Source of the DNA: Sphingobium sp. WTD-1
GTDB taxonomy: Bacteria > Pseudomonadota > Alphaproteobacteria > Sphingomonadales > Sphingomonadaceae
Length of the DNA: 64,000 nucleotides
NCBI RefSeq assembly: GCF_030128825.1
Contig: NZ_CP119127.1
Span: forward strand, 3,100,001 to 3,164,000
Direction of reading: 5' to 3'
Shown: piece by piece, positions 24,246 to 37,050 of the stretch
How positions within the stretch are numbered: the first letter of the stretch is position 1
Layout of the letters: every line of letters starts with the position of its first letter
The notes under the pieces: generated by a model
Seen by the model: the letters and a program-made list of their open reading frames with translations, nothing else
The model's database searches: none
Told to the model about the DNA's origin: nothing
Program-made: the position numbers and the translations under genes

Positions 24246-26501
24246 ATGACTGGTGCGGTGACAATCCCCCGACGGGGGCAGGCTTGGGCAAGGCTGATCC
24301 GGCCTTACCTGCGCAACGGTCGCCTAGCCGCCGCGATCGAAGCGGTCACGCTCATCCTGTTTCTTGGCACCGCTGGCCTGACCTATCGCCTGTTGTCTGG
24401 GCAGGACCAGTCCTATACCCTGTTGACCCCGCCGATCGTGGCGCTGTTGCTGGTTGCCAATCTGGTGCCGGCGATCGCGCTGCTGATGCTGCTGGGGCGT
24501 CGCGTGGCCAAGCGTCGGGCGGCCAAATCGGCGATCGGCAGCGATGGCCAGCTTCATGTCCGTCTGGTGGCGATCTTCTCGGTCGTGGCCAGCGTGCCGA
24601 TGCTGCTGGTGGTGATCTTTGCGTCGCTGCTGTTCCAATATGGCGTGCAATTCTGGTTTTCGGACAGCGCACGCGGCATGCTGCAAAATGCCAGCGATCT
24701 GGCGCGCGGCTATTATGAGCAGAATTTGCGCGAGGTCCGCGACGAGACGCTGACCATGGCGAGCGACTTGCGCGACTATCTGGGCCAGTCGAGCGTTTCG
24801 AGCCCGCGCTTTGCCGAAGGCTATATCTATCAGGTAGTGACGCGAAAGCTGAACCGGTCGGCGATCATCGAGATCGGCAAGGACGGCGTGGCGCGGACCG
24901 CCGCGACGGTCGACCCCGAGAGCCGGCCGGCATCCGAAATGCTGTCCGCCGATGTCGTGAAGCGCCTGGCGTCCGGCGAGGATGTGGTGGTGGCCGCCAA
25001 GCCGAACCAGATCGAAGCGGTGACGCTGCTCTACCCCAATTCCAAAATCTATCTCTACGCCACGCGCAATGCCGGCAGTTCGTCCTTCTCCAATGTGGAG
25101 CGGGCGCAGAAGGTGCTGGGCGATTATGACCTGTTCGCGGCCCAATCCCGCGCGCTGCAATTGCGGTTCAACCTGCTGCTGTTCGTCGGATCGCTGTTGC
25201 TGGTCGGCATCGCCGTCTACATCGCGCTGGCGGTGGCGGACTGGATGGTGCGGCCGGTCAATGAACTGGTGACAGCGGCCCGCAAGATCACGGCGGGCGA
25301 CCTGTCCGCGCGCGTGACCAGCCCGGCCAGCCGGGACGAAATCGGCACGCTGGCCTCCGCCTTCAACCGCATGACCCAGCGGTTGGAAGCGCAGACCGGC
25401 GCGCTGGTCGCGGCCAACAGCCAGCTTGACGAGCGGCGCGCCTTTATCGAGGCGATCCTGTCGGGCGTGAGTGCCGGCGTGCTTTCGGTCGATCGCGGCG
25501 GCGTGATCCAGTTGCTGAACAGCTCGGCCGCTGCGATCCTGGTGCGTGAAGGCGATGATCCGGTCGGACGGCCGCTGGCCGAGATTTCGGCTGAGCTGGC
25601 CGAACTGGTTGCGTCGCAGGAGGATGCCGGGATTGTCCAGGTGCGCGCCCAGGGAGATTTGCGCACGCTGGCGGTCAAGGTGTCCGAAGATGTGTCCGGC
25701 CATATCCTGACCTTCGACGACATCACCCAGCAATTGTCGGATCAGCGCCGCGCCGCCTGGTCGGACGTGGCGCGGCGTATCGCGCATGAGATCAAGAACC
25801 CGCTGACGCCGATCCAGCTGGCCGCCGAGCGCCTGCAGCGCCGCTATGGCGAGGAGGTGACGAGCGACAAGCCGACTTTTGCCCGGTTGACCGGCACGAT
25901 CGTCCGTCAGGTGGGCGACCTGCGCCGCATCGTCGACGAGTTTTCCTCCTTTGCCCGCATGCCCAAGCCGGTGTTCCGGCGCGAGGCGCTGGGCGATATT
26001 GCTCGCCACGCCCTGTTCTTGCACGAGGTGGCCCATCCTGACATTCGCTTCGCATTCGAGGCCGATGACGGCGACATGGAAATGGTCTGCGATCGCCGCC
26101 AACTCGGTCAGGCGCTGACCAACATCGTCAAGAATGCGGTCGAGGCGATCGAGCCCAAGCCCGTGCCCGAAGAGGGCAATGTGCGTGGCAATATCCGCAT
26201 GCGCCTCCATCAAGTCGAGGGCGCGCTGGTGATCGAGGTGCGCGACGATGGCATCGGCCTGCCGCCCGAACGTGAGCGCATCCTGGAGCCCTATATGACC
26301 ACCCGGTCGAAGGGGACGGGTTTGGGCTTGGCCATCGTCAAGAAGATTGTCGAAGAACATATGGGCGAAATCCGCTTCGATGACGCGGAAGGCGGGGGCG
26401 CGCGGGTTACGCTGCGCTTCCCTGTCGCGGCCCTGGAGAAACTGGAAGAGGGGCAGGTGGTTGCCTTGCCCAAAGGAAAAGTGACGGCCAATGGCGCTTG
26501 A
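24246..26501 (+). CDS. ntrY: NtrY-type transmembrane sensor kinase
   Basis: A 751-residue membrane histidine kinase. Two N-terminal helices (about 32-52 and 70-92), a third at about 115-140, a periplasmic domain, a further helix near 310-330 and a HAMP domain (VADWMVRPVNELVTAARKITAGDLSARV...) precede a PAS domain and the kinase core with His in [22 protein letters not shown]. The GTGLGLAIVKKIVEEHMG lobe is intact. NtrY/NtrX control nitrogen use and in some relatives respiration and envelope functions. The ATG at 24246 is used over a GTG 13 codons earlier. It overlaps ntrX by 11 bases. Confidence 0.94.
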   Translation: MTGAVTIPRRGQAWARLIRPYLRNGRLAAAIEAVTLILFLGTAGLTYRLLSGQDQSYTLLTPPIVALLLVANLVPAIALLMLLGRRVAKRRAAKSAIGSDGQLHVRLVAIFSVVASVPMLLVVIFASLLFQYGVQFWFSDSARGMLQNASDLARGYYEQNLREVRDETLTMASDLRDYLGQSSVSSPRFAEGYIYQVVTRKLNRSAIIEIGKDGVARTAATVDPESRPASEMLSADVVKRLASGEDVVVAAKPNQIEAVTLLYPNSKIYLYATRNAGSSSFSNVERAQKVLGDYDLFAAQSRALQLRFNLLLFVGSLLLVGIAVYIALAVADWMVRPVNELVTAARKITAGDLSARVTSPASRDEIGTLASAFNRMTQRLEAQTGALVAANSQLDERRAFIEAILSGVSAGVLSVDRGGVIQLLNSSAAAILVREGDDPVGRPLAEISAELAELVASQEDAGIVQVRAQGDLRTLAVKVSEDVSGHILTFDDITQQLSDQRRAAWSDVARRIAHEIKNPLTPIQLAAERLQRRYGEEVTSDKPTFARLTGTIVRQVGDLRRIVDEFSSFARMPKPVFRREALGDIARHALFLHEVAHPDIRFAFEADDGDMEMVCDRRQLGQALTNIVKNAVEAIEPKPVPEEGNVRGNIRMRLHQVEGALVIEVRDDGIGLPPERERILEPYMTTRSKGTGLGLAIVKKIVEEHMGEIRFDDAEGGGARVTLRFPVAALEKLEEGQVVALPKGKVTANGA

Positions 26502-27864
26502 TATTCTGATAGTCGACGACGAAGAGGACATTCGCGATCTGGTTGCGGGTGTGCTGGAAGATGAGGGTTTCACGACCCGCACTGCCGCCAACAGCGACAG
26601 CGCGATCGAGGCGCTGGACAGCCGGCGCCCCTCGCTGGTGCTGCTCGATGTCTGGCTGCAGGGGTCGAAGCTCGACGGGCTGGAACTGCTGGACGAGATC
26701 AAGCGGCGCGACGCGACCGTCCCGGTGCTGATGATTTCCGGTCATGGCAATATCGACACGGCGGTAGCGGCGATCCGCAAGGGCGCGGCCGATTTCATCG
26801 AGAAGCCGTTCGAGGCGGACCGGCTGCTGCATCTGGTGGCGCGGGCCACCGAGACCGAGCGGCTGCGGCGCGAGAACCAGACGCTGCGCGCGCGCTTTGG
26901 CCAAGATGATGAGCTGACCGGCACGTCGGCATCGATCAACGGCGTGCGGGCGACGATCAAGAAGGTTGCAGGCACCGGCAGCCGGGTGCTGATTTCCGGG
27001 CCGGCGGGCGTCGGCAAGGAAGTCGCCGCCCGCATGCTGCACAGCTGGAGCGGGCGGGCCGATGCGCCCTTCATCATCGTCGCCGCGGCGCGGATGGACC
27101 CGGATCGGGTCGAGGAAGAACTGTTCGGCGTAGAGGATCCCAGCGGGCTGGTGCGTCCGGGCTATCTGGAACAGGCGCATGGCGGCACGCTCTATCTGGA
27201 CGAGATCGCCGACATGCCCGTCACCACCCAGGGCAAAATATTGCGCGTGCTGACCGACCAGAGCTTCACCCGCGTCGGCGGGCAGCGGCAGGTGAAGGTC
27301 GACGTGCGGGTGATTTCCTCGACCGCGCGCAACCTGACGGCGGAAATCGAGGAGCGGCGCTTCCGCGAGGATCTCTTCTATCGGCTCAATGTCGTGCCGT
27401 TGCAGATTCCGTCGCTGTCCGAGCGGCGCGATGATATTCCGCCGCTGGTCGAGCATTATCTGGCACGCTTCGCCGCCGATCGTCGCGTCAACCCGCCGGA
27501 GATCGCCAGCGACGCGATGGCCGCATTGCAGGCCAATGAATGGCCGGGCAATGTCCGCCAGCTGCGCAATGTGATCGAACGGACGATGATCCTGGCACCG
27601 GGCGATCGGATCGGCCGGATCGAGCTGGACATGCTGCCGGCTGAATTGACGAGCGGGGGCGGCGGCGATGGCATCGGCCAGTCCGCCATCATGGGCGCGC
27701 CGCTGCGCGAGGCGCGCGAAAGTTTCGAACGGGAATATCTGCGCATCCAGATCCGGCGGTTTTCCGGCAATATCTCGCGCACCGCGACCTTCATCGGCAT
27801 GGAGCGGTCTGCGCTGCATCGCAAACTGAAATTGCTGGGCATTACCGACGGAAAGGACGGCTGA
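26491..27864 (+). CDS. ntrX: NtrX-type response regulator lacking the GAFTGA loop
   Basis: A 457-residue regulator: receiver domain (Asp53 in LVLLDVWLQG), AAA+ domain with Walker A-like SGPAGVGKE (about 169-177) and GGTLYLDEIADMP, and a C-terminal Fis-type HTH (SGNISRTATFIGMERSALHRKLKLLGI). At residues 211-228, where NtrC has FGYEKGAFTGAQ, this protein reads FGVEDPSGLVRPGY, so the sigma54-contact loop is gone. It probably does not activate sigma54 holoenzyme and may act as a conventional activator or repressor. It overlaps ntrY. Confidence 0.93.
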   Translation: MALDILIVDDEEDIRDLVAGVLEDEGFTTRTAANSDSAIEALDSRRPSLVLLDVWLQGSKLDGLELLDEIKRRDATVPVLMISGHGNIDTAVAAIRKGAADFIEKPFEADRLLHLVARATETERLRRENQTLRARFGQDDELTGTSASINGVRATIKKVAGTGSRVLISGPAGVGKEVAARMLHSWSGRADAPFIIVAAARMDPDRVEEELFGVEDPSGLVRPGYLEQAHGGTLYLDEIADMPVTTQGKILRVLTDQSFTRVGGQRQVKVDVRVISSTARNLTAEIEERRFREDLFYRLNVVPLQIPSLSERRDDIPPLVEHYLARFAADRRVNPPEIASDAMAALQANEWPGNVRQLRNVIERTMILAPGDRIGRIELDMLPAELTSGGGGDGIGQSAIMGAPLREARESFEREYLRIQIRRFSGNISRTATFIGMERSALHRKLKLLGITDGKDG

Positions 27865-27903
27865 CGCTGGGGAAAGTCCTGATGGCGATGTCAGGCATGG
27901 ACG

Positions 27904-27998
27904 CCCCTTCGCAATTGCGGTAGGATTGCTTCGCCCTCGACAAGCGGGGGCAGGCAAGACACCTCCGCCCAGAGGTGCGAGAGCGGGTAACGTCCCGC
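27904..27998 (+). promoter_or_regulatory. Structured leader of hfq with shared palindrome
   Basis: The 156-base spacer ahead of hfq holds CCCTTCGCAATTGCG (27904-27918), which recurs downstream of ettA, then two hairpins: CACCTC/GAGGTG (27960-27965, 27972-27977) and GCGGG/CCCGC (27983-27987, 27994-27998). The second hairpin ends 22 bases before the start codon. AAAGGA at about 28004-28009 is the ribosome-binding site. Autoregulation by Hfq binding its own leader is known in other bacteria; here it is inference. Confidence 0.4.
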
Positions 27999-28020
27999 CA
28001 ATAAAGGACTGGCAAAAACC

Positions 28021-28503
28021 ATGGCCGACAAAGTGAACAACCTTCAGGATATTTTCCTCAACAGCCTGCGCAAGTCGAAGACCCCGGTGACCATGTTCCT
28101 GGTCAAGGGCGTGAAGCTGCAGGGTATCATCACCTGGTTCGACAATTTTTCCGTGCTGCTGCGCCGGGATGGCCAGTCGCAGCTGGTCTACAAGCATGCC
28201 ATTTCGACGGTCATGCCGGCCCAGACGATGGACCTGACCGATCTGCGCAAGGCCAGCGACGGCAATGGCAAGCCGCGCCTGCTGCAGGAAATCTTCCTGA
28301 GCGCCGTGCGCAAGTCGGGCAGCCCGGTGACCATGTTCCTGGTCAACGGCGTCATGCTCCAGGGCGAGATCGCCGCCTTTGATCTGTTCTGCATGCTGCT
28401 GGAACGTGACGGCATGGTGCAGCTGGTCTACAAGCACGCCATTTCGACCGTGCAACCGCTCCATTCGCTCGACCTGTCGGGCGAGAACGAGCAGGACGAC
28501 TGA
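28021..28503 (+). CDS. hfq: RNA chaperone Hfq with two tandem Sm-like domains
   Basis: A 160-residue protein, twice the usual domain content. Copy 1 spans about residues 6-68 and copy 2 about 86-147, with a period of exactly 80 residues (240 bases). Both have Sm1 and Sm2, the latter ending in YKHAISTV. The copies differ on the RNA-binding faces: FDNF versus FDLF on the proximal side, GVKLQG versus GVMLQG on the distal side (the conserved Lys is Met), and RKSK versus RKSG on the rim. Three chains could form one pseudo-hexamer. Hfq pairs small RNAs with mRNAs. It lies in the standard ntrX-hfq-hflX order. Tail is short and acidic. Confidence 0.96.
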
Positions 28504-28578
28504 TCGTCCGCGCCGCATCCGGTCTTCCTGCCGATCCGCGCGGATAGACCGGAGCGCGGCCAGATGCTCTAAGCTGAC

Positions 28579-29910
28579 ATGGCCATATTCAATCGCGACT
28601 CCGAGGACGAAGTGGCGCGCGGTGCGCGCGCCGTTGTCGTGCATGCCGAAACCCACGGCGGCGACCGCCGCGACAGCGACGCCCGGCTGGAGGAAGCCCG
28701 TGGTTTGGCCCTCGCCATCGGTATTGATGTGCGCGCGGCCCAGAGCTTCCGCGTCCGCGACCGCAAGCCTGCAACCCTGTTTGGCAGCGGCCAGGTCGAC
28801 CAGATCGCCACGCTGGTGAACCAGGAAGAGGCCGAACTGGTCATCGTCGACAATGCGCTGACCCCTGTGCAGCAGAGCAATCTGGAGAAGGGAACCGGCG
28901 CCAAGGTCATCGACCGGACCGGGCTGATCCTGGAAATTTTCGGCGAGCGCGCCGCCACCAACGAGGGGCGGTTGCAGGTCGAACTCGCCCATCTCGACTA
29001 TCAGGCCGGCCGCCTGGTGCGCAGTTGGACCCATCTTGAGCGCCAGCGCGGTGGCTTTGGCTTCCTGGGTGGTCCGGGCGAAACCCAGATCGAGGCGGAC
29101 CGGCGCATGATCCGCGACCGCATGGCCAAGATCCGGCGCGAACTGGATCAGGTGACCAAGACGCGCGGCCTGCATCGCGCTCGGCGCCAGCGCGCGCCCT
29201 GGCCGGTGATCGCGCTGGTCGGCTATACCAATGCCGGCAAGTCGACCCTGTTCAACCGCCTGACCGGCGCCGAGGTGATGGCGGAGGATCTGCTCTTCGC
29301 CACGCTCGACCCGACGATGCGGCAGATCGTGCTGCCGGGGCTGGACAAGGCGATCCTGTCCGACACTGTGGGCTTCGTCTCCGACCTTCCGACCCAGTTG
29401 ATTGCGGCCTTCCGCGCGACGCTGGAGGAAGTGCTGTCGGCCGATATCATCGTCCATGTCCGTGACATTGCCCATCCCGACACGGACGCCCAGCGCGACG
29501 ATGTGCTGGACGTGCTGAGCGAACTGGGCGTGGCCGGCGAAGGTGCCCTGGAGCGTGGCGATGGCGAGGCTGATCCGCCGCCGATTATCGAGGCGTGGAA
29601 CAAGCTTGACCTGCTCGACGAGGAACAGGCCGCGCTGGCCCGCGAGACGGCGGCCCGGCGTGACGATGTCGTCATTATCTCGGCGTTGACCGGCGAAGGT
29701 GTCGACAAGCTACAGCGGGCAATCAGCGCCCGACTGACCCGTGGCGCGCGGGTTCACAGCCTGCGCCTGCCGATCAGTGATGGTGCCGCCCTTGCCTGGC
29801 TACATGAGCATGGCGAGGTGCTGGCGACCCGGCCGAGCGAGGCGGAGATGCAGGTGGATGTCCGCCTGTCCGACTCCGGTCTCGCCCGCTTCCTCAAGCG
29901 CGATCGTTAA
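28579..29910 (+). CDS. hflX: GTPase HflX
   Basis: A 443-residue translational GTPase. The N-terminal HflX domain (about 1-195, with SGQVDQIATLV and NEGRLQVELAHLDYQAGRLVRSWTHLERQ... regions typical of the family) precedes the G domain: G1 GYTNAGKST, G2 near LLFATLDPT, G3 DTVGF, G4 NKLD and G5 SALTGEG. HflX splits stalled 70S ribosomes, notably in heat stress. It follows hfq by 75 bases. Its TAA stop shares the palindrome TTAA with the stop of the convergent nucleosidase gene, a four-base tail overlap. Confidence 0.95.
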   Translation: MAIFNRDSEDEVARGARAVVVHAETHGGDRRDSDARLEEARGLALAIGIDVRAAQSFRVRDRKPATLFGSGQVDQIATLVNQEEAELVIVDNALTPVQQSNLEKGTGAKVIDRTGLILEIFGERAATNEGRLQVELAHLDYQAGRLVRSWTHLERQRGGFGFLGGPGETQIEADRRMIRDRMAKIRRELDQVTKTRGLHRARRQRAPWPVIALVGYTNAGKSTLFNRLTGAEVMAEDLLFATLDPTMRQIVLPGLDKAILSDTVGFVSDLPTQLIAAFRATLEEVLSADIIVHVRDIAHPDTDAQRDDVLDVLSELGVAGEGALERGDGEADPPPIIEAWNKLDLLDEEQAALARETAARRDDVVIISALTGEGVDKLQRAISARLTRGARVHSLRLPISDGAALAWLHEHGEVLATRPSEAEMQVDVRLSDSGLARFLKRDR

Positions 29911-33617: not shown

Positions 33618-33722
33618 TATGTTAATAGCGATACCGCAACTGTCCATGTAAACTGTGTCCAGTGTGATGGGGAAAGGCTTGCAGTCACGGCGGTCTTTCA
33701 ACAGTATCAGCGACCGTGTCCA
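33618..33722. repeat. Candidate left end of the Tn554-like element
   Basis: TATGTTAA (33618-33625) is repeated directly at 37688-37695 on the other side of the recombinase genes. CTGTCCAT (33640-33647) is inverted relative to ATGGACAG at 37624-37631. TGTCCA recurs at 33641, 33656 and 33717. The surroundings are much more AT-rich than the neighbouring genes. TTGCAG (33679) and CAGTAT (33702) are 17 bases apart and could be the tnpA promoter, giving an almost leaderless mRNA. Confidence 0.4.
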
Positions 33723-34930
33723 CTTCGTTCGCCACGACGCCCTGGCAGGCAGCGCGTATCGAAATGCCCGGCGGCCGCCGGTCGTGGACGGTATTGGATG
33801 ATCACGGCGACGTCGTCGAGTGCCTACGTCATTGGATCGTCCATCTCGAGCAGACGCACGCGTCTCCGAACACGATCCGCGCGTATGTTCGCCATGTCGT
33901 CGACTTCGCGAACTTCCTCGGCGCCAACGGCGCCGGCATCCATGAAGCCACGGTTGCGCTCTACGACGGCTTCCTTGCCTGGCGGCTTGCCCGGCGAAAG
34001 GATGCCTTGCCGAGCCCGCGGCTGATCCTGCTGCGAAAGCAGGAAACGCGGGTTCTGGCGCCATCGACGCGCAACCAGATCCAGCTGGCGATCAAATCGT
34101 TCTACCGCTTCTATAACGGCACCGACGACTTCGCGGTCGATACGGCTGAGGTCAGCAAGGTCTATGACGGGCACCGGATCTACAAGCCGTTCCTCGAGCA
34201 TATCAGCCAGCGTCGCACGACGCGGCGCAAGGACCGCTATCTGTCGGGCGATCCCGGCCGTGTACAGCAGCAGGTGCTCAAGAAGCGCCTGACGCCAAGC
34301 GAGGTCCTGCGGCTGATCGAGGCGTGCGGTCTCGCGCGCGACGCGTTCCTGATCGTGCTGCTCTACAATACCGGTCTCAGGATCGGCGAAGCGCTGGGTC
34401 TGCGCCATGTCGACATCGACCTCGCTGAAAAGGTCGTCTGGGTCGTTCCGCGCGAAGACAATGCCAATGGCGCCCGCGCCAAATCCGGCCGGACGCGCGG
34501 TGTGCCGGTCCACGACTACGTGCTCAACATGTACGTCGACTACCTCACCAGCGACGAATATCTCCCGGCCTTCGAGTCCGGAGCGGAGTACGTCTTCGCC
34601 AATGTGAAAGTCGGCATGATCGGGCACGCCATGAGCCTGTCCTATGCCCAAAAGCTCGCGGGCCTGCTCGAGCAGCGCACGCATATCGACTTCAGCTGGC
34701 ACATGTTCCGCCACAGCCATGCATCCGAAGCGATCGCGGCGGGATACAGCCTGCTCGAAGTGGCCGATCGCCTCGGACATGCCAGCCCGCAGACAACGGC
34801 CGCGTTCTACCAGCACCTGTTCGCCTCGGAAATCCGCAGGCTTTACCTCACAGGTCCCGACGAGGTGCATGAAAGGCTTGAGAAACTTCGCGAGGCAGAG
34901 CTTCTTAGAAGGGATATGCGATGGGCATGA
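33716..34930 (+). CDS. tnpA: Tyrosine recombinase, TnpA of Tn554 type
   Basis: A 404-residue tyrosine recombinase. Residues 35-140 form the SAM-like DNA-binding domain (HWIVHLEQTHASPNTIRAYVRHVVDFANFLG). The catalytic domain has Arg in YNTGLRIGEALGLRHVD, the His-x-x-Arg in HMFRHSHASEAIA, His in LGHASPQTT and the nucleophile Tyr in AAFYQHL. The GTG at 33716 is the start. It overlaps the next recombinase gene by 10 bases. Two overlapping tyrosine recombinases followed by a small HTH protein is the TnpA-TnpB-TnpC pattern of Tn554-family elements. Confidence 0.88.
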   Translation: MSTSFATTPWQAARIEMPGGRRSWTVLDDHGDVVECLRHWIVHLEQTHASPNTIRAYVRHVVDFANFLGANGAGIHEATVALYDGFLAWRLARRKDALPSPRLILLRKQETRVLAPSTRNQIQLAIKSFYRFYNGTDDFAVDTAEVSKVYDGHRIYKPFLEHISQRRTTRRKDRYLSGDPGRVQQQVLKKRLTPSEVLRLIEACGLARDAFLIVLLYNTGLRIGEALGLRHVDIDLAEKVVWVVPREDNANGARAKSGRTRGVPVHDYVLNMYVDYLTSDEYLPAFESGAEYVFANVKVGMIGHAMSLSYAQKLAGLLEQRTHIDFSWHMFRHSHASEAIAAGYSLLEVADRLGHASPQTTAAFYQHLFASEIRRLYLTGPDEVHERLEKLREAELLRRDMRWA

Positions 34931-37050
34931 CGCCGCTGGCGCTCGTCGGCGGCACACCGCATGATACCGATCGCTACAGCAACTGGCTCGAAGCTCGGCT
35001 CGGGGGACTATCCCCCCTTCTCGTTGAGAATCCTGTCTGGTCAGACGCCATAATGAACGAGGTGTTCGGCCATTCCTGGCTGAGCCAGACATACGCAAGT
35101 CTGCCGCTCAGCGCTGCGGTTCCGGTGCTGACCAACGAGATCAAGGCCTACCTCGCGGCATCGGTGCTCGATGATCGCAAGGCCGACACCCAATGGTTCC
35201 AGCGCCGGATCCCGGTGATCCGATATCTCGTCGAGGAAGGCGCAAGCCTGCTTCAGCATTTTGGAGCGGGCTGTCTGGCGGACATCCCCCACCCGGGCTT
35301 CGGCGCGTCAGATGGCGATACTGCGAAGACGAAATGCCACAACGATGCCGTCCTCGAACTCTACGCCACATGGTACGGCGAACAGTACGGGCGGCGGAGG
35401 CAAAGCCAGACCCGCCAATGGATCCGGGACGGCGAGATCGTCACCACCCAGTATCGATCACCGGAAGTGCAGCTGTTCGGTGATATCCATCGCTTCTCGA
35501 TCATCAATCGGGCGCAGATGGCGCCGATGCATGACCGCGACATCATCTGGATCAACGATCTTTACAGCGAGGAGGACACGCGCTTCCGCGACCGGCAACG
35601 CCGAAGCGACACTTATCTGAACTTCCTGTGCTTCGAGCCTTGGCTGCGCCCGTTGATGCGCGGCTTCCTGCTCGACAAGGTCGCACATGGCGAACTTGCG
35701 CCGGCGACCCTTGTGGGAATGCAATCGCGCTTGCGAACCTTCGGGCAGTTCCTGCACGGCGAGGGCATCGCCGAGCCCGGGCGAGTCACTGAACTGACGA
35801 TGGAGCGTTACCTCGCATGGGGAAACGCGCGAAATGCCGCAGGCAAGAACTGGTACACCGACATCGTGCAACTCCTGCGCGCGGCTCCGGTCCTGCTGCC
35901 AGGCCAATGGCCGCGGATCGCACTCGACAAGCGCGCCGCACGGCGCATCCGTTACAAGCAGGCACCGGACGACCCGCGGAACCGGCTTTACGCATCACGC
36001 GAGGGTGCCAACCGGGCCGCCCCGCCGGAAGCCCTGGCGGCCATGGTGGCCAGGCTCGACGAACTGCCCGCCCCTATCCCGGTAATCTTCATGATCGGCG
36101 TCACGACCGGGGCGCGGGCCGAAGACCTGCATGCCCTGCTCTTCGACTGCCTGCGGCCCGATCCGCACGACACGCGCTTCATGCTGTTCACGTTCTGGCA
36201 GAACAAGGTCAGCCGCTGGAATACCAAGCCCTTGCTGGTCACCGATCCTGCGCACCAGGCGATGATCAAGCTGATCGAGGCGCAGCGGGATCATGTCCGG
36301 CAGCGTTACGGGCGCGTCACCAAATACCTGTTCCCGGTCTTCTCCGGCAAACGGGAGTCGTTCCTCGGCTACAACTGGACCTTGCAGGAACTCAAGATGC
36401 TGTGCCTCAGGCATGGAATCGTCGATGGCGAGGGCAAGCCGTTCGACTTCTCGTGGCATCCACTGCGCCACCATCGCGGGACGCAGATGGCGGCCGAAGG
36501 CCATGACATCCTCAGCATCATGTTCGAACTGGGCCATGCCTCGCCCGATATGGCGTCGATGTACGTCAACAAGCGTCTCGACCTCAAGAAGAACGCCTTG
36601 CTGCGGAAAGGTGGCGGCCAGTTCTTCACGATCGCGGGCAAGGTCGACGAGGCCGTCGGCGATCTCCTGCTGCGCAAGGAAACCATGCTGGCGACGCGGG
36701 TCAGTGGCGGCGCCTGTACGCTGCCCGGCCAGCTTGGCGAATGGTGCGAGCACGCCCATGCCTGCCTGACCTGCCGGTTCTTCCGCGCCGATGGCGACGA
36801 CCTCGAGCACTTCCGCTGCGAGCGCGCCGGACTTTACGTCGCGATCGAAGGCCTCGAACAGGAAGCGCGGGATTACGAGGAAGGCGGTCAGGCCCGCATG
36901 GCCGACATCACGCGCAAGCGGCTGCAACGCAACAAGGATGCCGTCCACAACACTGACACCATCATCCGTTCCATCGAGGAGCACGGTCTCTACAAAGGTC
37001 AAAAGCAGCGCTACAGGCCGAGCGCTGCTCGGGAGGAAGCGACGCAATGA
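34921..37050 (+). CDS. tnpB: Tyrosine recombinase, TnpB of Tn554 type
   Basis: A 709-residue recombinase. A long N-terminal part (about 1-330) precedes the catalytic domain, with Arg in GVTTGARAEDLHALLFDC, His-x-x-Arg in SWHPLRHHRGTQMA, His in ELGHASPDMA and the Tyr in SMYVNKRL. The C-terminus has a Cys/His cluster (CEHAHACLTCRFFRA, later FRCERA) that could bind zinc, followed by a helical basic tail; this arrangement is seen in Tn554 TnpB-like proteins. It overlaps tnpA by 10 bases and tnpC by ATGA. Confidence 0.87.
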   Translation: MGMTPLALVGGTPHDTDRYSNWLEARLGGLSPLLVENPVWSDAIMNEVFGHSWLSQTYASLPLSAAVPVLTNEIKAYLAASVLDDRKADTQWFQRRIPVIRYLVEEGASLLQHFGAGCLADIPHPGFGASDGDTAKTKCHNDAVLELYATWYGEQYGRRRQSQTRQWIRDGEIVTTQYRSPEVQLFGDIHRFSIINRAQMAPMHDRDIIWINDLYSEEDTRFRDRQRRSDTYLNFLCFEPWLRPLMRGFLLDKVAHGELAPATLVGMQSRLRTFGQFLHGEGIAEPGRVTELTMERYLAWGNARNAAGKNWYTDIVQLLRAAPVLLPGQWPRIALDKRAARRIRYKQAPDDPRNRLYASREGANRAAPPEALAAMVARLDELPAPIPVIFMIGVTTGARAEDLHALLFDCLRPDPHDTRFMLFTFWQNKVSRWNTKPLLVTDPAHQAMIKLIEAQRDHVRQRYGRVTKYLFPVFSGKRESFLGYNWTLQELKMLCLRHGIVDGEGKPFDFSWHPLRHHRGTQMAAEGHDILSIMFELGHASPDMASMYVNKRLDLKKNALLRKGGGQFFTIAGKVDEAVGDLLLRKETMLATRVSGGACTLPGQLGEWCEHAHACLTCRFFRADGDDLEHFRCERAGLYVAIEGLEQEARDYEEGGQARMADITRKRLQRNKDAVHNTDTIIRSIEEHGLYKGQKQRYRPSAAREEATQ

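Follow-up and report, generated by a model that had tools for sequence, protein, structure and literature searches.

Hfq is normally a ring of six copies of one subunit, and with six identical subunits any mutation affects all ring positions at once. In eukaryotes, Sm/Lsm hetero-rings are assembled from the products of seven separate genes instead of a covalent pair, and they are not Hfq. These hetero-rings, mentioned in the excerpted text of Yang et al. 2010 (PMC2877685), likewise bring unlike Sm-fold subunits together in one ring. The same excerpt describes an Hfq of Zymomonas mobilis, ZMO0347, with two Sm-like domains in one chain, lists six other Sphingomonadales with a two-domain Hfq and raises the question of whether the ring is formed from three chains. 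An insertion mutant of ZMO0347 lost tolerance to several inhibitors and was at least partly complemented, as reported there. The nearest solved structure to the protein studied here, among the matches listed, is the Hfq of Caulobacter crescentus (PDB 6gwk), which has one domain per chain with Asn28 and Lys31 and therefore six equal positions.

The initial annotation of a sphingomonad hfq gene had suspected that the fusion might be known, and rightly so, since the family entry NF010691/PRK14091 (RNA chaperone Hfq, 176 positions) exists and Yang et al. 2010 (PMC2877685) described a case in Zymomonas; neither the fusion nor the three-chain idea is therefore new. The Sphingobium protein is the same kind of two-domain chain as ZMO0347 and matches the NF010691 entry over its full length. 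However, a functional difference between the domains is not treated in the excerpted text of PMC2877685, and the NF010691 entry is silent on unequal copies. Judged from sequence, tandem Hfq is a family-wide trait whose two halves are kept different.

The tandem hfq gene

The window is a stretch of 64,000 nucleotides from Sphingobium sp. WTD-1. Positions 28021 to 28503 of the plus strand hold an open reading frame of 160 amino acids with an ATG start and a TGA stop, which encodes two complete Hfq domains in one chain. The Pfam Hfq profile PF17209 matched two stretches (3e-57, 190.6 bits for the whole protein versus a cut-off of 27; singly 107.2 bits for domain 1 and 86.7 bits for domain 2), and NF010691 matched residues 1 to 160 with 313.3 bits versus a cut-off of 270. 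The period from copy to copy is 80 residues (L8 to L88), and the tandem of two complete domains with this period that had been proposed from the letters alone is what reading frame, Pfam and NF010691 agree on. The features are as follows.

28021 to 28503, plus strand: hfq with two fused Hfq domains, 160 amino acids (reading frame, Pfam, NF010691)
28042 to 28230, plus strand: Hfq domain 1 (copy 1), residues 8 to 70 (PF17209)
28105 to 28116, plus strand: distal hairpin K-G-V-K of copy 1 with Lys28 and Lys31, E. coli positions 28 to 31 (alignment of 114 tandem and 39 single Hfqs)
28219 to 28281, plus strand: interdomain linker (lengths and charge in relatives; predicted short helix at 73 to 78)
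28282 to 28464, plus strand: Hfq domain 2 (copy 2) (PF17209, 86.7 bits)
28309 to 28320, plus strand: rim segment R-K-S-G of copy 2, replacing R-K-S-K (rim counts, parsimony)
28345 to 28356, plus strand: distal hairpin N-G-V-M of copy 2 with Asn28 and Met31 (alignment of 114 tandem Hfqs)
28384 to 28386, plus strand: Leu41 of copy 2 (FDLF), replacing Asn (105 of 114 second copies have Leu; the tree needs 7 changes)
28453 to 28455, plus strand: Gln63 of copy 2, replacing Met (all 114 second copies have Gln; unchanged over the tree)
28459 to 28500, plus strand: acidic C-terminal tail, after copy 2 only (net charge in relatives)

In relatives the linker covers 14 to 22 residues between the domain alignments, with a mean net charge of -0.2. 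The last 8 residues bear a net charge of -2 or lower in 109 of the 114 tandem Hfqs and in 36 of the 39 single ones. A PF17209 profile search of the 5.67-Mb genome found no second hfq locus, leaving the tandem gene as the sole one found. By their Pfam domains, ntrY and ntrX lie upstream of hfq and hflX downstream, names which we assume partly from the usual gene order. Homologues of hflX stand beside hfq in 57 of 58 fetched 8-kb loci and ntrX in 55 of 58, several of the outgroup ntrX matches being partial. No RNA family reached its gathering score between 24000 and 34000. On the minus strand, an open frame of 1022 amino acids (26407 to 29475) runs antisense over ntrX, hfq and most of hflX; it is most likely a by-product of high GC content and no gene. 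Further downstream, two overlapping tyrosine-recombinase genes (33716 to 37050; 404 and 709 amino acids, Pfam Phage_integrase) adjoin mazG and are possibly a mobile element.

Occurrence and origin of the tandem

The family of the window accounts for 349 of the 397 genomes surveyed in the order. In our count from the listing, two Hfq matches occur in 334 of the 349 and a single match in the other 15, the position of both matches in one frame being established for the fetched loci and the other genomes being assigned by match count. One Hfq match was found in 47 of the 48 genomes from the other families of the order. A candidate tandem in a genome of another family (G001, family f2) was rejected, as its two Hfq matches lie on separate contigs and have the same sequence, one of them cut short. 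Beyond the order, NF010691 was run against 387 genomes of the class, of which 6 exceeded its cut-off of 270, and against 397 of the phylum, of which 19 did so; all of these belong to the window's family, although a diverged tandem elsewhere that scores lower would escape this search. One further tandem of the window's family lies slightly under the cut-off (G060, 261 bits). Some genomes of class and phylum gave two separate weak NF010691 matches, which are perhaps second hfq genes.

In a quick tree of the flanking genes hflX and ntrX, all 35 tandem genomes sampled fall into a single clade (support 100) that contains no single-copy genome. The 15 single-copy genomes of the family (L217-L227, L271-L274) fall outside; 14 of them make up one group (support 86), and L217 stands apart from these with weak support. 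In this tree 25 of 56 inner branches are open, the support for the outgroup is 70, end branches are long for L228, L253 and L233, four rows are of odd composition, and ntrX is missing or omitted for most outgroups. The duplication is old and lies at the base of the tandem clade. Probably, the fusion has a single origin by one duplication and fusion, without loss in the 35-genome sample, and repeated or horizontal origin is not favoured by the flanking-gene tree. The single-copy genomes lie outside the tandem clade and thus look like lineages that were never fused rather than like losses.

Residues that distinguish the two copies

From 274 loci we obtained 154 distinct domain sets. Of these, 114 are tandem and 40 single; one truncated single set was dropped, which leaves 39. 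The single Hfqs also come from further families of the same order and from a small number of genomes outside it. The tandem set is skewed to Sphingobium and Sphingomonas because 80 of the loci were picked as the window's best matches among 576; the nearest named relatives within these best 80 of 576 confirmed stretches are Sphingobium species. All domains were aligned to one profile, and positions are given in what we take to be E. coli numbering.

In the alignments the distal change is reciprocal: one lysine is gained in copy 1 and another is lost in copy 2. At position 28, Asn is found in 39 of 39 single Hfqs, Lys in 114 of 114 first copies and Asn again in 114 of 114 second copies. Position 31 is Lys in all 39 single Hfqs, Lys in 111 and Arg in 3 of the first copies, and Met in 113 and Leu in 1 of the second copies. 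The hairpin of an ordinary Hfq thus holds one lysine, whereas that of copy 1 holds two and that of copy 2 has none. The change from GVKLQG to GVMLQG singled out in the initial annotation is real and all but general (Met31 in 113 of 114), but it is only half of the picture, as Lys28 of copy 1 had been overlooked; copy 1 of the window reads KGVKLQG where ordinary Hfq has Asn (NGVKLQG). Elsewhere in the window, copy 2 carries Gln for Met63, Ala-Ala for Thr-Trp at 37 and 38 and Glu for Arg47. Position 63 is Met in 39 of 39 single Hfqs and in 109 of 114 first copies, and Gln in 114 of 114 second copies. At position 41, Asn stands in 39 of 39 single Hfqs and in 110 of 114 first copies, and Leu in 105 of 114 second copies; the replacement of FDNF by FDLF noted earlier is therefore present but less fixed than Met31, since this position changes 7 times on the tree.

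Positions 16, 17 and 19, which we take to be the basic rim patch of Hfq, are all basic in 39 of 39 single Hfqs and 114 of 114 first copies, but only in 8 of 114 second copies. The remaining second copies keep two basic residues in 51 cases, one in 42 and none in 13; in the window, copy 2 retains two of the three. The chain as a whole has the complete patch on one domain out of two. The substitution of RKSK by RKSG is accordingly one instance of a general loss of constraint at the rim rather than the single exchange as which it had been described.

The base pockets are not affected in this way. Neither copy shows any variation at positions 8, 26, 32, 52, 56 and 57 across the 114 sets. The proximal pocket, which we assume to consist of Q8, F42, Y55, K56 and H57, is present in both window copies together with the YKHAIS motif; over the whole set, Q8, K56 and H57 occur without exception in both copies (114 of 114), and for F42 and Y55 the count is no lower than 111 of 114 in either copy. 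All proximal positions (8, 42 and 55 to 57) thus show the usual residue in 111 or more of the 114 sets, in copy 1 as in copy 2. The same lower bound holds in each copy for the distal positions 25, 26, 29, 30, 32, 33, 52 and 61, among which we presume 29 to be distal. The other seven are the distal pocket positions listed in the excerpted text of Pei et al. 2019 (PMC6422490). Base-pocket residues being kept in both copies, the faces would differ in charge and rim and not in base recognition, which narrows the unlike RNA-binding faces proposed at the outset to the first two of these. The copy-specific residues as such proved to be conserved across related genera, in the comparison of 114 tandem with 39 single Hfqs; a lack of such conservation had been named as grounds for giving up the idea.

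Three loci of genus g13 (L125, L126 and L154) encode a strongly diverged tandem in which much of both copies is altered, with GFGTY or GFGSY for WFDNF in copy 1 and a shortened rim helix in copy 2. They still carry Lys28 in copy 1 and Met31 or Leu31 in copy 2. A further g13 member, L124, is far less altered.

Constraint on the two copies

The two window copies are identical in 41 of 60 aligned residues and in 72.8% of nucleotides. Their DNA contains long identical runs, e.g. CCGGTGACCATGTTCCTGGTCAA and CAGCTGGTCTACAAGCA, which could indicate that gene conversion keeps the copies alike, as the initial annotation had considered for the region near YKHAIST. The similarity there is indeed high in the window. 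Over the 114 genomes, however, it scarcely exceeds what protein conservation and codon bias give. The same codon was used in a fraction of 0.551 within genomes versus 0.541 when genomes of matched GC3 were compared (71 genomes gave a higher and 35 a lower value, i.e. 106 of 114 genomes, the rest being tied or having too few matched genomes), and for an 11-residue stretch the values were 0.568 and 0.544 (higher in 63, lower in 43); these differences are small and, as the control matches GC3 alone, may reflect codon preference. Moreover, the duplication at the base of the tandem clade is old, and a domain tree over 59 columns (36 first copies, 41 second copies, 22 single domains) groups the copies by copy and not by genome, each on one side of a branch with a support of 90 for copy 1 and 99 for copy 2. 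When columns 22 and 25 are left out, copy 2 remains one-sided with a support of 89 and copy 1 requires 3 changes. Given how small the same-codon excess over GC3-matched genomes is, we have abandoned gene conversion as an explanation that is hardly credible.

On the 35-genome tree, parsimony counts 325 changes for copy 2 and 164 for copy 1. Within the tandem clade, positions 13, 16, 17 and 19 of copy 2 change 20, 11, 16 and 22 times, and its positions 28, 31 and 63 change 0, 1 and 0 times; positions 13, 16 and 28 of copy 1 do not change at all. With a dN/dS ratio of 0.119, copy 1 lies below copy 2 at 0.241, and both values are far below 1 (944 of 6441 pairs, with pS between 0.1 and 0.5). By these counts copy 2 is freed at the rim, while its pockets and the residues that set it apart are held, and the comparison supports different constraint on the two copies. 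A division of work between them is what we infer from this pattern. Copy 2 is thus not just in decay, given that the residues special to it count among the most constant it has.

A neutral course of events has to be weighed here: the tandem would act as an ordinary Hfq, its copies having drifted and become interlocked by a neutral ratchet, with copy 2 as a relaxed structural spacer and no divided labour. Such a history would fit the roughly twofold faster evolution of copy 2, the rim positions of which are among its freest, and also the probable single appearance of the special residues. Relaxed drift alone would not predict, however, that Met31 and Gln63 of copy 2 and Lys28 of copy 1 are as constant as the pockets, and the pocket residues of copy 2 are themselves nearly invariant. 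Overall, we consider neutral fusion unlikely, though deserving of attention. A single appearance of the copy-specific residues being probable, we read their constancy as a sign of constraint and not of repeated adaptation, and 114 of 114 does not stand for 114 independent events; the residues could be historical accidents that are structurally held in place.

Structure prediction and ring assembly

AlphaFold2 predicted the single chain from 52 aligned sequences with a pLDDT of 88.5 and a pTM of 0.84; three of the five models were of like quality, whereas the other two scored poorly (pLDDT 55.0 and 42.9). For a two-domain chain with undetermined placement, a pTM of about 0.45 is expected by our own estimate. 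Compared with this estimate, the value of 0.84 points to a definite predicted packing within the single chain, which is not to be equated with a ring interface. In the model, strands 1 and 2 (22 to 27 and 32 to 40 in protein numbering) are joined by a turn that has positions 28 and 31 at its two ends. A fold comparison of the two-domain model returned only single-domain Hfq chains among the matches listed and does not address the packing.

The prediction also bears on whether six copy 1 domains might form one hexamer and six copy 2 domains another, yielding a strong and a weak ring. A linker of 14 to 22 residues would in principle be long enough to span different rings, and divergence of the copies would be in keeping with it. 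On the other hand, AlphaFold2 makes both domains one confident body, and a ring of copy 1 only would hold twelve hairpin lysines and a ring of copy 2 only none, while alternation would keep six. We regard separate rings as most improbable.

Instead, we favour as probable that the sole Hfq found in this organism is made as a two-domain chain, that three chains close the usual six-position ring with copy 1 and copy 2 alternating, and that positive charge is sorted onto copy 1. As only one hfq locus was found, no second Hfq would be at hand for completing the ring. All six positions would retain the Hfq fold and the pockets for A-rich RNA on the distal and U-rich RNA on the proximal face. Copy 1 would carry the basic rim patch and both hairpin lysines, 28 and 31, whereas copy 2, no longer equipped with a complete rim patch or a hairpin lysine, would have retained the pockets and would bear the acidic tail. 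The ring would thus have three strong and three weak positions in place of six equal ones, with the full rim patch at three of six positions and the total of hairpin lysines kept at six by the three chains. With the acidic tail following copy 2 only, there would be three tails per ring instead of six.

Discussion

The fusion, its single origin and the copy-specific conservation of residues are supported by our computations. The alternating ring, the role of each feature in it and the effect on RNA binding are what we infer from them. In other Hfqs the rim patch contacts RNA, speeds annealing and helps sRNA and mRNA to pair, and the acidic tail likewise has a role known from other Hfqs. The excerpted text of Dimastrogiovanni et al. 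2014 (PMC4337610) states that the rim contributes to RNA binding and proposes that it recognises the sRNA seed. For the distal face, the excerpted text of Pei et al. 2019 (PMC6422490) places the RNA triplets in clefts between subunits, with the backbone weaving between six positively charged protuberances and the purine site drawing on Tyr25 from one subunit together with residues 26', 30' and 32' from its neighbour. In an alternating ring every distal cleft would accordingly be mixed, base recognition would be unchanged and the charged protuberances would be unequal. However, according to the same excerpt it is through its backbone amide, and not through its side chain, that Lys31 contacts the adenine 5' phosphate (Pei et al. 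2019; PMC6422490), and this counts against a role for the side chain of residue 31 in the explanation by an alternating ring.

More tentatively, the sphingomonad tandem may be an Hfq that is asymmetric by nature, its three-fold ring being enforced covalently, with full rim patches and paired distal lysines on three of six positions and base-reading pockets on all six. Such a ring might impose a fixed register of two triplets on the RNA and confine annealing to three sites, and, having arisen by one duplication and fusion, it would be a bacterial counterpart of the specialised Sm/Lsm hetero-rings.

As far as we have seen, the reciprocal shift of lysines and the one-sided rim are the fresh part of these findings. 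The copy-specific pattern was not found in the excerpted text of Yang et al. 2010 (PMC2877685), which does not establish its absence from print, and within the limited literature covered we found no published test of the three-chain ring, nor a published structure, mass or RNA-binding measurement of a tandem Hfq. In the sphingomonad tandem, neighbouring ring positions could be mutated separately, which could reveal how many rim patches and how many distal hairpins are needed. If confirmed, the tandem would present a homomeric RNA-binding ring in the course of turning heteromeric, a step that to our knowledge is otherwise known from the eukaryotic Sm/Lsm rings.
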